Assembly: GCF_000300005.1 (NCBI RefSeq)
Contig: NC_018691.1
Span: 2,604,001-2,668,000, forward strand
Length of the DNA: 64,000 nt
DNA from: Alloalcanivorax dieselolei B5
GTDB taxonomy: Bacteria > Pseudomonadota > Gammaproteobacteria > Pseudomonadales > Alcanivoracaceae
Direction of reading: 5' to 3'
Shown here: positions 46,832 to 50,483 of the stretch, piece by piece
How positions within the stretch are numbered: the first letter of the stretch is position 1
Layout: each line of letters starts with the position of its first letter
Made by a program: the position numbers and the translations under genes
Notes under the pieces: model-generated
Seen by the model: only the letters and a program-made list of their open reading frames with translations
What the model was told of the DNA's origin: nothing
Database searches by the model: none

Positions 46832-47073
46832 TCCAGCCGGATCGTGGCGGCACGCTGCTGGCACTGGCGGTGGTCAGCCTGTTGCTGTTCGCGCCCCTGG
46901 GGCCGGTGGTCTGGTGGTGGGCGCAAAAGGATCTGGACGCCATGGCGGCGGGCCGCATGGATGCGGTGGGGCGCCCCTCCACGCTGTGGGCCCGGGGGCT
47001 GTCGATGGCGGCCACGTTGCTTTTGATGATGATGTTGATTGGAATTTCAATTGCTTTAATTTCAATGATATAG
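46828..47073 (+). CDS. Small two-helix membrane protein (DUF4190-like)
   Basis: This 81-residue protein begins at a GTG overlapping the EamA gene stop. Helix 1 is LLALAVVSLLLFAPLGPVVW and helix 2 is LSMAATLLLMMMLIGISIALI. The loop WAQKDLDAMAAGRMDAVGRP resembles DUF4190-type proteins, which have a KDL..M..G.MD loop. The last 15 codons are strikingly AT-rich compared with the rest and contain a 9-bp direct repeat. Function is unknown. Confidence 0.65.
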   Translation: MIQPDRGGTLLALAVVSLLLFAPLGPVVWWWAQKDLDAMAAGRMDAVGRPSTLWARGLSMAATLLLMMMLIGISIALISMI

Positions 47074-47130
47074 ACAATCTTATTAATGCCAATTCTATAT
47101 CACGATTTCGATTTTCCATTACCCCCGTTG
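47029..47130 (+). other. AT-rich island upstream of the secDF leader
   Basis: About 100 bp of clearly AT-rich sequence lies in an otherwise GC-rich region, overlapping the end of the small membrane protein gene. It contains AATTTCAAT twice (47043-47051 and 47058-47066, 15 bp apart). It also has promoter-like boxes: TTGCTT (47051) with GACAAT (47073), and TAGACA (47071) with TATATC (47096). It is the most likely place for the promoter of the downstream secretion-monitor/secDF operon. Confidence 0.5.
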
Positions 47131-47232
47131 AAGCCGATGCTCGCCGCCCCCATTTGATGGCGCTACTCTATTGGGCTGGATTGGGCCGGTTTAACCCGGC
47201 GATCCTGAATCCACCACCACCGGATACCCGAC

Positions 47233-47616
47233 TTGGCCGCACCGTCATCCCGTAGCTTGCGCCCCAACCGCCGTGAACCGGCCGGGAGCCTGCTCGCCCA
47301 TCTGCTATGGGTGCTGATGCTGCTTGCCACGCCGCATTCCGGTCAGGCGTTTGACGCCCGCGAAGGCGGGCCGCACACCCAACCCCTCGACGGGGCCGCT
47401 CAACTTGCTCTGCCCTCCGGCTATCAGGTCCGTAGCGACGCTTTTGCCACTGATCACCACGACGACGGCAACGCGGCTCTATTACCGTGGCTGCCGTCGG
47501 CAACGCCGACACCGTCGCGCCCCGGCCCGCTTTCCCTGAACCGCCCCCTGGCGGTGGTTGCTGAGCACTACCGGCCACAGGCTCCCCGCGCCCCACCCGC
47601 GTTCTCCACGCTCTGA
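47233..47616 (+). CDS. Putative secretion-monitoring arrest peptide with C-terminal RAPP motif, upstream of secDF
   Basis: I read a 127-residue protein from a TTG with a weak GGA site; a second TTG lies at codon 9. It has a Sec signal peptide: basic n-region with four Arg, hydrophobic core LLAHLLWVLMLLA, and cleavage near SGQA/FDA. The rest is low in complexity and Pro/Ala-rich and resembles no enzyme. It ends PQAPRAPPAFSTL, with R119-A120-P121-P122 five residues from the stop. R-A-P-P is the stalling motif of the ApdA/ApdP arrest peptides, which sit upstream of secDF in actinobacteria and alphaproteobacteria; VemP does the same job before secDF2 in Vibrio. The gene precedes secDF by 74 bp. 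I infer a nascent-chain sensor that stalls until its own export pulls it free. No similarity beyond signal plus RAPP is claimed. Confidence 0.75.
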   Translation: MAAPSSRSLRPNRREPAGSLLAHLLWVLMLLATPHSGQAFDAREGGPHTQPLDGAAQLALPSGYQVRSDAFATDHHDDGNAALLPWLPSATPTPSRPGPLSLNRPLAVVAEHYRPQAPRAPPAFSTL

Positions 47617-47687
47617 CCCCAACAACACCGCCACACGGCGGCACCTTCGCGTGCGCGCCCGGCGGAGAGTGGTTTTAATGGAGAACG
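47600..47687 (+). promoter_or_regulatory. mRNA switch masking the secDF Shine-Dalgarno
   Basis: CGTTCTCCA (47600-47608), the codons immediately after the RAPP motif, is perfectly complementary to TGGAGAACG (47679-47687), which contains the secDF ribosome site GGAG 7 nt before its TTG start. A small hairpin CCGCC-ACAC-GGCGG (47628-47641) lies inside the closed loop. With Pro121 in the P site (codon 47593-47595), the front edge of a stalled ribosome should reach about 47608-47611. It would therefore cover the masking strand and free the secDF site. Confidence 0.7.
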
Positions 47688-47690
47688 AAC

Positions 47691-50174
47691 TTGAACCGAT
47701 TTCGCTTACGGGCGACGGCTTATGCCCTCGTCATTCTGCTTGGTGTGCTCGCCGCGCTGCCGAGTATCCTGCCGCCGGCGGCGTTGCAACAGGCGCCGGA
47801 CTGGTATCGCCAGCACCATCTGTCCCTGGGGCTGGATCTCCAGGGCGGCTCCCATGTGCTGCTGAAAGTCGAACAAGGACCACTGCTGGCGGAGAAAACC
47901 CGCAAGATCGCGCAGGAACTGGGGCAGCGCCTGGACCGCAACGGCATTCAACACGGCCGCCCGGTGGTCGATGGTGATCATGTGCGCCTGGCCATCCGCC
48001 CGGCTGCCGCCATGGAGGCCGCCCTGCGGCTTGCCTCGGACATCCGGGATGATCAGGGCCGCCGCCAGCTTTCCGTGACCCACGACGGTCCGTCCCTGGT
48101 GTTGCGGCCCTCTTCCAGTTTGTCGCAACAGGTGGTCAGCGATGCGGTGGAACGCAGTCTGGATGTGGTGCGCCGCCGCATTGATGAAACCGGCGTGGTG
48201 GAACCCCGGGTCACCCGCCAGGGCGACGATGCCATTCTGGTGCAACTGCCCGGCGTCACCGATCCGGAACGCATCACCGCCCTGCTTGGCCGCACCGCGC
48301 GATTGACCTTCCATCTGGTCGCCGATGGCAGCGGCCCGGATCGCCCCCTGGTGCTGCCGGGCGCGGAAGACGGCCGGCGTTACCAGGTCGAAGCCACACC
48401 TTTACTGGACGGCGGCCAGTTGGCCGACGCCCGGCTGGGCTTCGACAGCCGCACCCATCAGCCGGTGGTGAACTTCACGCTGGACGGCGACGGTGCCCGC
48501 CTGTTCGGCGACATCACCACCCACAACGTGGGGCGGCCCTTCGCGGTGGTGCTGGACGGCGAAGTGATTACCGCGCCGGTCATCCGTACCCCGATCACCG
48601 CCGGTCGCGGCGAGATCAGCGGCAACTTCACCCCGCGGCAGGCCGGTGACCTGGCCATGTTGTTGCGCGCCGGCTCCTTGCCCGCCCCGCTGCACGTCGT
48701 GGAGCAGCGAACGGTGGGCGCGGAACTCGGCGGCGACACCATTCGCATGGGCGTGCTCAGCGGTGCCCTCGGCGCGGCTCTGGTGCTGGTGTTCATGATC
48801 TCGATTTATCGCCGCTGGGGTGTGATCGCCAATACCGCTCTGGCCATCAATGTTCTGCTGGTACTGGGTTTACTGGCCAGTTTCGGCGCGACGCTGACGC
48901 TGCCGGGCATCGCCGGTCTGATCCTTGGCGTCGGCATGGCGGTGGACGCCAATATTCTGATCAATGAACGCATCCGCGAGGAAACAGAGAAAGGCAAGAA
49001 TGCCATGGCGGCGCTGCGCGCCGGCTTCCAGCGCGCCTTCGCCACCATCGTCGACGCCAACATCACCACGCTGATCGCTGTGGGACTGCTGTTCGGTTTC
49101 GGCAGCGGTCCGGTGCGCGGTTTCGCCGTGACCATGGCGGTGGGGCTGCTGGTGTCCATGTTCACCTCGGTGTCGGTGACCCGGTTACTGATGGAGTGGC
49201 GGCTGCGACGGCGGCAGCGGCAACCGCTGGTCCTGCCGGAGGTACCCGGATTTCAGCGCCTGCGGCAACGCCAACAGCCGATCCAGTTCATGCGTGTGAA
49301 GGCGTTGGGCATCACGCTGTCAGTGCTGCTGTCGGTACTGTCCCTGGGCTCTCTGGCCTGGCCGGGATTGAATCAGGGCATCGATTTCCTCGGCGGCATC
49401 GCCATGGAGGTTCAGGTGCCCTCGTCGCTGTCGGAGAACGCTCTGCGGCAGGCATTGCGGGACGCCGGCCTCACCGACGCGGCGTTGCAGCCGTTCGCCG
49501 ATGACGGCCACTTTCTGGTGCGGATGCCCGCCAGTGACGATGGTAACGCGGTGGTGGAAACAGCGAAGACGGCGATCAGCGGTCTGCACGCCGACAGCCG
49601 TTTCCCACGGGTGGATATGGTCGGCCCGGCGGTCAGCGGCGGCTTCGTCGAAGCCAGTATTCTGGCGGTGCTGCTGGCCGGGGCGGGCATGTTCGCCTAC
49701 CTGCGGCTACGCTTCGAACGGCATTTCGCCTGGGCGGCGCTGATCACCCTGCTGCTGGATGTGAGCAAGACACTGGGGTTCTTCGTGTTGACCGGCGTGG
49801 AATTCAATCTTACCGCCATCGCCGCCTTGCTGACGCTGATCGGTTACTCGGTGAACGACAAGGTGGTGGTCTTCGACCGCATCCGCGAAAACCAGAAGCT
49901 CAATCCGGATCAGCCGCTGGAGACGCTGCTCAATGTCAGTCTGACCCAGGTGCTGACCCGCACGCTGTTCACCTCCGCCACCACCTTCCTGGCGCTGCTG
50001 CCGATGGGGCTGCTGGGTGGTGGCGCGGTGGCCAGCTTCGCCCTGCCGGTGCTGTTCGGCATTGTTGTCGGCACCACTTCTTCCATGTACATCGCCGCGC
50101 CCATGGCCCTGTTCCTGGCGCGCTGGCGACCGACGCCACGGGCTGACACGGAGGTGTTGGCGGAGCGGCCTTGA
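47691..50174 (+). CDS. secDF: Fused protein translocase subunit SecDF
   Basis: This 827-residue single-chain SecD+SecF has twelve helices. The SecD half runs to about residue 500 with SLGLDLQGGSHVLLK after TM1, the large P1 periplasmic head, and VNFTLDGDGARLFGDIT. The SecF half starts near residue 520, with INQGIDFLGGIAMEVQV as the SecF D1-like motif and a last block FALPVLFGIVVGTTSSMYIA. It uses proton motive force to pull exported proteins off SecYEG. The TTG start with GGAGAA is within the proposed mRNA switch. Gammaproteobacteria usually have separate secD and secF next to yajC, so this is probably a second, inducible copy. Confidence 0.92.
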   Translation: MNRFRLRATAYALVILLGVLAALPSILPPAALQQAPDWYRQHHLSLGLDLQGGSHVLLKVEQGPLLAEKTRKIAQELGQRLDRNGIQHGRPVVDGDHVRLAIRPAAAMEAALRLASDIRDDQGRRQLSVTHDGPSLVLRPSSSLSQQVVSDAVERSLDVVRRRIDETGVVEPRVTRQGDDAILVQLPGVTDPERITALLGRTARLTFHLVADGSGPDRPLVLPGAEDGRRYQVEATPLLDGGQLADARLGFDSRTHQPVVNFTLDGDGARLFGDITTHNVGRPFAVVLDGEVITAPVIRTPITAGRGEISGNFTPRQAGDLAMLLRAGSLPAPLHVVEQRTVGAELGGDTIRMGVLSGALGAALVLVFMISIYRRWGVIANTALAINVLLVLGLLASFGATLTLPGIAGLILGVGMAVDANILINERIREETEKGKNAMAALRAGFQRAFATIVDANITTLIAVGLLFGFGSGPVRGFAVTMAVGLLVSMFTSVSVTRLLMEWRLRRRQRQPLVLPEVPGFQRLRQRQQPIQFMRVKALGITLSVLLSVLSLGSLAWPGLNQGIDFLGGIAMEVQVPSSLSENALRQALRDAGLTDAALQPFADDGHFLVRMPASDDGNAVVETAKTAISGLHADSRFPRVDMVGPAVSGGFVEASILAVLLAGAGMFAYLRLRFERHFAWAALITLLLDVSKTLGFFVLTGVEFNLTAIAALLTLIGYSVNDKVVVFDRIRENQKLNPDQPLETLLNVSLTQVLTRTLFTSATTFLALLPMGLLGGGAVASFALPVLFGIVVGTTSSMYIAAPMALFLARWRPTPRADTEVLAERP

Positions 50175-50219: not shown

Positions 50220-50483
50220 TCAACCGTGACTCTTCTGCAACGCTTCCACTTTGCTGATGTAGTTTTGCCGCGCGCTGTCCTGGTCCATGCCCTTGAGCTT
50301 GGCCCAGGCGTCGTACTTGGCGCGCCCCACCATATCCAGCATGCCCGGCCGCTTGCCGGTGACGTCGCCGACGCTGCCCTGCTTGAAATGGGCGTACAGA
50401 TACAACAGGTCATCGTTGCCCGGTTTGCGTGACAGGGTCTGTACGTCCTTCCGGGCCTGTTCAAACTGCTCTTCATACGCCAT
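50220..50483 (-). CDS. Acyl-CoA-binding protein
   Basis: This 87-residue four-helix protein has the ACBP signature: FEQARKDVQTLSRKPGNDDLLYLYAHFKQ in the first half and MVGRAKYDAWAKLKGMDQD in the second, with the conserved Tyr and Lys ligands. It binds medium- and long-chain acyl-CoA esters in the cytosol. Such proteins are scattered in bacteria and fit a lipid- or alkane-degrading lifestyle. It is convergent with secDF across the GC hairpin. Confidence 0.93.
   Translation of the reverse strand: MAYEEQFEQARKDVQTLSRKPGNDDLLYLYAHFKQGSVGDVTGKRPGMLDMVGRAKYDAWAKLKGMDQDSARQNYISKVEALQKSHG

Follow-up and report, generated by a model that had tools for sequence, protein, structure and literature searches.

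A fused secD-secF gene lies 74 bp behind a short open reading frame (ORF) on the same strand in the 64,000-nucleotide stretch of Alloalcanivorax dieselolei B5 DNA that we analysed (NC_018691.1, positions 2,604,001 to 2,668,000; hereafter the window, in which all coordinates are given unless they refer to the genome). As judged from its sequence and that of its relatives, the short ORF very probably encodes an arrest peptide of the RAPP/RQH kind, which monitors Sec export and regulates the downstream gene by translation. The fused gene (47691..50174, plus strand) encodes 827 amino acids (aa) from a TTG start, preceded by a GGAG Shine-Dalgarno (SD) element at 47680-47683, and matches SecD/SecF domains in a Pfam search at E-values up to 1; the same search returned no domain for the short ORF. 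The genome is a single contig of 4,928,223 bp and also carries an ordinary yajC-secD-secF cluster (genome positions about 4074703-4077979). The fused gene is therefore a second copy, which we named secDF2.

The leader ORF (47233..47616, plus strand) runs from a TTG start to a TGA stop, comprises 127 aa and ends in YRPQAPRAPPAFSTL, with PRAPPAFSTL as the C-terminal residues before the stop. By inspection and hydropathy, its N-terminal part (47233..47352) is an export signal with a net charge of +3 in the n-region, the hydrophobic h-region LLAHLLWVLMLLA and a cleavage-type site, GQA followed by F. The predicted arrest motif, R119-A120-P121-P122, is encoded at 47587..47598, and 89 residues separate the signal from the arrest site. 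All toeprinted RQH members described in PMC10987492 stall with the third motif codon in the P site, from which we infer a P-site codon at 47593-47595 and an A-site codon at 47596-47598. Searching solved structures with phmmer gave a single match (E 0.051), which we regard as chance. The TTG at 47233 is present in all four close genomes (the window's own included), and a second in-frame TTG at 47257 in one of them. Both leader and secDF2 start with TTG here and in the three closest relatives, an arrangement that perhaps keeps the rates of both low. The initial annotation had recognised the 127-codon ORF, the export signal and RAPP end of its product, and the distance of 74 bp to a fused secDF downstream; it had missed the second-copy status of the latter, together with the RNA arm and the acidic cluster described below.

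That annotation had named, beforehand, the loss of RAPP and signal from relatives as the finding that would speak against an arrest peptide. Both are instead retained. Our sample comprised 65 gammaproteobacterial secDF2 loci, 36 from the first searches and 29 added later (labels such as L038 denote single loci), and in 63 of these an upstream ORF ends in a RAPP-like motif, scored as (R/H/Q)(A/G/S/D)PP (35/36 of the first and 28/29 of the later loci; among the latter the ORF was identified by script in 27 and by eye in L107). The 62 script-scored loci divide into RAPP (51), RGPP (4), RSPP (3), HAPP (2), QAPP (1) and RDPP (1), with RSPP falling outside the published RQH pattern. The motif stands 1-7 residues from the stop in 61 of the 62 and 13 residues from it in the remaining one. 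As a measure of chance, we scanned 3375 stop-to-stop frames of 55-300 aa, taken from 19 evenly spread 20-kb stretches of the window's genome. RAPP occurs within the last 17 residues of 6 of them, and (R/Q/H)(A/G/D)PP, a count from which the S variant was left out, in 14. A hydrophobic N-terminal segment is present in all 61 scored loci, its end lying a median of 91 aa from the P site (n=61; searched only within about 60-115). Matches as long as SecD alone, or interrupted by a stop between the two halves, were set aside as canonical (L015-L030, L055, L058-L062 and further rows, the upstream ORFs of some of which were inspected; L058-L062 have a yajC-like ORF upstream by eye), and L031-L034 were dropped as duplicates of loci already in the genome set. 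By eye, we found no RAPP-type ORF of at least 50 aa before secA or yidC in the stretches fetched from the window's genome.

The leader is also selected as a protein. Its ratio of non-synonymous to synonymous substitution rates (dN/dS) is 0.32-0.47 among the four close genomes and 0.16-0.53 for pairs of close relatives across five groups, and the ORF is therefore translated and maintained at the protein level. Over longer distances the 82-residue bodies have diverged until the median identity between 32 group representatives (0.25) hardly differs from that of shuffled sequences (0.24). A chance ORF is ruled out by the conservation of the motif in relatives together with this protein-level selection.

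A predicted RNA structure connects the arrest motif to the start of secDF2. A nine-nucleotide anti-SD arm, CGTTCTCCA (47600..47608, plus strand), begins one nucleotide past the two proline codons and is predicted to pair in free RNA with TGGAGAACG (47679..47687), which contains the secDF2 GGAG; below it, CGCTCT (47609..47614) pairs with 47666-47671. A ribosome covers about 15 nt counted from the first nucleotide of its P site, so that one stalled with the third motif codon there would reach to about 47607-47608, with the arm inside its expected footprint. The mean unpaired probability of the SD in the window is 0.01 in the free RNA and 0.48 when nucleotides through 47607 are removed. Over 35 loci, mean accessibility is 0.17 free against 0.33 in shuffles, and 0.38 against 0.34 after removal of the footprint (Wilcoxon p 5e-5 for the gain). 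When 15-nt windows are paired with the SD, the energy (20 groups) peaks 3 nt beyond the A site at -11.7 kcal/mol, compared with -5.3 to -8.1 kcal/mol outside -3 to +9. Averaged by group, the arm places in the top 5 percent when set against 100 windows from the secDF2 coding sequence (12 of 20 groups) and likewise when set against upstream windows (10 of 20). Exchanging partners between loci weakens the pairing: cognate arm/SD pairs of 20 representatives average -15.1 kcal/mol and swapped ones -10.0 (none of 20,000 permutations as good), an exchange with other representatives gives -14.5 versus -9.5, and 12 further representatives give -12.5 versus -8.2 (again 0/20,000). Arm and SD thus co-vary between lineages, with a minority of loci that do not fit.

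The second conserved element of the leader is a cluster of acidic residues in its otherwise divergent body. When the peptides are aligned without gaps on the motif, the cluster lies at -50 to -38 from the motif arginine, which in the window corresponds to residues 69-81 (47437..47475, plus strand; D69, D74, D77, D78). Its centroid across 32 groups is -43.9 (interquartile -46 to -43), about 46 residues before the P-site residue. At least two aspartates or glutamates occupy these positions in 62 of 62 scored loci, compared with 257 of 1216 windows elsewhere in the representatives; between -46 and -29 there is almost no positive charge, and hydrophobicity peaks behind the cluster at -37 to -35 (0.70 hydrophobic, 32 groups). 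None of 5000 rotations was as good in the first 20 groups, a post hoc test since the cluster was first noticed by eye. With the window fixed beforehand, 12 other groups gave an acid content of 0.237 versus 0.062, in the same direction in 12/12, with 0 of 10,000 rotations as good. This test used 22 of the later 29 loci and left out L089, L091, L093, L099 and L101 (nearest relatives of earlier groups), L107 and L110. Each of the 12 groups belongs to a family, and most to a genus, already represented by an earlier locus; they are therefore not phylogenetically independent and inheritance contributes to the result, although the sequence around the cluster is at background identity in them. The acidic codons (GAC 81, GAT 75, GAA 25, GAG 21) make a cause at the RNA level unlikely. 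In 10 of 61 loci (L039, L047, L051, L054, L091, L093, L087, L100, L111 and L112), a second hydrophobic segment follows soon after the cluster and ends 18-28 residues before the P site. The first six of these are six of seven loci from one family, and such leaders might read membrane insertion besides export.

We are able to propose a mechanism from these elements. Sec would export the leader through its signal, as the sequence suggests. Without pulling, the ribosome would stall with RAP attached to the tRNA of its P site while Pro122 occupies the A site, as the motif and published stalls suggest. The stalled ribosome would then cover 47600-47608 and free the SD from the 9-bp helix, allowing translation of secDF2; the arm, its position and its co-variation are computed, and the consequence for expression is what they lead us to expect. 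Normal export would pull on the chain and release the stall, upon which the helix would re-form and secDF2 would be switched off. The acidic cluster and the short hydrophobic stretch behind it probably tune this last step, a role suggested by their conservation.

Several observations weigh against this reading. The motif alone is no proof: according to PMC10987492, most of the E. coli and B. subtilis proteins that contain RAPP-like motifs are made without stalling. The leader begins with TTG behind a weak GGA site, and a consensus scan found no plus-strand promoter upstream of it. One locus of the 65, L038, lacks any RAPP-type upstream ORF, and the upstream ORF of L110 reads RAAP. At the RNA level, SD accessibility shows zero gain in 8 of 35 loci (L013, L014, L042, L045, L050, L052, L054, L056) and a gain of 0.06 or less in five more. 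The arm is no stronger than ordinary windows in another count of 8/35 (L035, L036, L037, L039, L042, L046, L050, L051), in the sense that 0.3 or more of coding or upstream windows are equally strong. The cognate SD ranks first for 7 of the 12 later arms and is a poor partner for those of L090 and L098, and the swap tests carry no control for base composition, which the comparison with windows of the same locus supplies. Folded as a whole, the region in the window only mildly beats shuffles (z -1.36, 19/200 shuffles as good). As a separate observation, the body of L110 retains its acidic residues, and its leader is possibly a weakened or decaying sensor.

These points bear on two broader alternatives. 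The leader could be an ordinary small exported protein that shares an operon with secDF2 and whose RAPP end, like the hairpin, is incidental; protein-level selection on the ORF would be expected of such a protein, and a GC-rich leader favours hairpins. We consider this very improbable, as identity in the body has fallen to background level but the signal, the motif and the acidic cluster persist, the motif stays within a few residues of the stop in nearly every scored locus, and arm and SD co-vary. Alternatively, secDF2 might be under the control of transcription attenuation or of RNA structure as such, with translation of the ORF mattering for coupling only, a notion encouraged by the GC-rich intergenic hairpin and the short T run (TTTT) behind it. 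A consensus scan of 46850-47760, however, placed no terminator on the plus strand of the intergenic region (of the two matches, with 1.1 expected, one lies at 46997-47013 on the plus strand and the other at 47643-47629 on the minus strand), and no Rfam family was matched at gathering thresholds. Coupling would also leave the conserved RAPP and its fixed place relative to the arm unexplained, and we consider this alternative, too, very improbable.

Given an arrest switch, the acidic cluster can be read in two ways. Ismail in 2015 reportedly found the effect of the membrane potential to be maximal 47-49 residues from the P site. The potential is described as stimulating the movement of acidic residues and thereby releasing SecM arrest (PMC6028853); basic and uncharged stretches released it somewhat too, so that the potential is not the sole force (PMC6028853). 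Because the potential is reported to act on acidic residues near that distance, the cluster may be a voltage-sensitive handle: kept 40-52 residues before the P site, it would lie in the translocon at the moment of stalling, where the potential would pull on its negative charge, and SecDF2 would be made when either the potential or Sec pulling fails. This extra conserved patch may thus sense membrane pulling. The cluster could instead be a docking or holding element of a genuine arrest switch rather than an electrical sensor, comparable to VemP, in which a short hydrophobic segment, Arg-85 and an (Hphi)xP element control arrest at SecY/PpiD (PMC11470409). The hydrophobic peak behind the cluster agrees with docking, as do the ten loci that extend it to a full segment; the sharpest conservation is nevertheless that of negative charge and of the near-absence of positive charge, with which docking is still compatible. 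We put this docking role at a little short of an even chance. The main text of PMC10987492 does not mention an acidic cluster for the uDF_RQH_Enterobacterales peptides ("acidic" does not occur, and "negatively charged" occurs twice, both times in a single passage on MifM). The fixed position of the cluster near the distance at which engineered SecM force sensors reportedly feel the potential makes the question "do Sec monitors read membrane energy?" directly testable with available reporters.

SecDF2 is patchily distributed: within the family 13 of 46 genomes carry it, and within the order 29 of 390 do (32 genomes matched in the latter, with G067, G274 and G411 excluded, as their sole match has a stop between the halves). 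The closest relatives among named records are those of Alloalcanivorax xenomutans JC109, A. balearicus MACL04 and Alcanivorax sp. 24 (95-97 percent identity). L047 and L107 each have one in-frame stop within secDF2, which may reflect a pseudogene or a sequencing error. Convergent to secDF2 in the window is an acyl-CoA-binding protein gene (50223-50483, minus strand), and by eye a similar ORF also lies near secDF2 in the relatives L009 and L010.

A tree of the SecD part (76 rows, LG+G4, midpoint root; support as bootstrap/SH-like approximate likelihood-ratio test, SH-aLRT) unites gammaproteobacterial SecDF2, including L038, in one clade (100/100), within which L038 is a deep branch. Its sister clade (100/99) consists of ten RAPP-linked SecDF of ApdP type (four alphaproteobacterial plasmid records and six genomes of another class in the same phylum) and of L121, which has no such ORF. 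The pair, supported at 100/98, lies among non-gammaproteobacterial SecDF of the phylum and a record from Azospirillum, and is separate from canonical gammaproteobacterial SecD. Transfer of secDF2 from Alphaproteobacteria, perhaps with its leader, would be the simplest account, but it is no more than suggestive, as a single gain followed by losses at L038 and L121 costs about the same as two separate gains. Large plasmids are a plausible route of spread. RAPP leaders with SecDF are found on Tistrella mobilis pTM3 (L141, typed conjugative) and Sinorhizobium meliloti pSymB (L139). By linking ApdP-type and gammaproteobacterial RQH-type loci, the tree bears on the single or repeated origin of RAPP peptides, for which Fujiwara et al. 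favoured repeated origins (PMC10987492). A bolder view would combine both threads: the secDF2 leaders would be voltage-tuned force sensors, and arrest peptide and SecDF2 would have entered Gammaproteobacteria jointly, from an ApdP-like alphaproteobacterial cassette, and then spread. Under it the now-unalignable RAPP peptides would share one origin, contrary to the published preference. We hold this combination to be doubtful.

Comparison with known systems places the leader more precisely. The SecM-secA pair of E. coli resembles it in its RAGP stall and masked SD and differs in controlling secA rather than secDF and in the body of the peptide (PMC10987492, PMC7897499). VemP, upstream of secD2-secF2 in Vibrio, is likewise an exported arrest peptide with a masked SD and a second SecDF in a marine bacterium (PMC5449182), yet it has no RAPP, stalls at Q156 by compaction and has a C-terminus unlike that of our leader by eye. 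In our tree, SecD from one Vibrio record falls among canonical gammaproteobacterial SecD, a lineage distinct from that of SecDF2, on a long branch of unsure place; VemP therefore looks like an analogue of our leader and not a relative. The VemP-like leader in that unannotated record was recognised by eye. In L144 (Vibrio sp. THAF191d), the acidic residues of a VemP-like leader, itself identified by eye, immediately precede a hydrophobic stretch (EIDTDVLAIV), an order resembling that described above.

ApdP shares with the leader a RAPP end, a signal or membrane anchor and a fused SecDF downstream, and structural work on ApdA and ApdP has explained how RAP-P stalls the ribosome (PMC10951233). 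ApdP, however, belongs to Alphaproteobacteria and the present host is a gammaproteobacterium, the body sequences are unrelated, and SecDF2 falls beside and not inside the ApdP-type clade; we do not count the leader as an ApdP. The acidic cluster is much weaker in ApdP-type peptides (0.120 versus 0.079 elsewhere, 6/9 groups, rotation 198/10,000), and in eight representatives cognate arms pair at -10.3 against -11.4 when swapped, L117 alone having a strong arm (L141 entered the acid test and not the arm test; L118 was not among the arm representatives). There being no overall arm in these eight, the arm is not universal among RAPP peptides.

The closest match is the RQH kind (Fujiwara 2024, PMC10987492). 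Four of its features are present here: a short same-strand upstream ORF (uORF) of unknown function immediately before secA or secDF (here without a Pfam match); an N-terminal secretion signal or membrane segment (here by hydropathy and charge); (R/Q/H)(A/G/D)(P/G/S)(P/G) near the C-terminus in more than two species of an order; and a signal and an arrest site that lie over 30 residues apart. Two further features, a stall with the third motif codon in the P site and induction of the downstream sec gene through a masked SD, are predicted here, the RNA part of the latter having computational support with exceptions among the loci. That work may already include a Pseudomonadales group among its eleven secDF groups, in its supplement, and our literature search returned no paper joining "Alcanivorax" with "arrest peptide" and none with "uDF_RQH_Pseudomonadales". 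The claim that this is a RAPP-class Sec sensor outside Vibrio is supported by conservation, protein-level selection and the co-variation of arm and SD, with stalling a prediction; since a RAPP-like peptide before secDF2 of Alteromonas naphthalenivorans is published (PMC10987492), our leader is a further member and not the first. That peptide, uDF_RQH_Enterobacterales, is likewise an exported uORF before secDF2 with a RAPP-like motif near its C-terminus and an SD-masking stem-loop opened by the stalled ribosome, although its motif is RGPP rather than RAPP and its host belongs to a different order; arrest control of secDF2 was demonstrated experimentally in Alteromonas (PMC10987492) and is predicted here. 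Relative to these systems, our study adds an acidic cluster about 46 residues ahead of the stall site and the placement of SecDF2 in the SecD tree, and it extends a recently described family of arrest switches to marine oil-degrading bacteria and their relatives.

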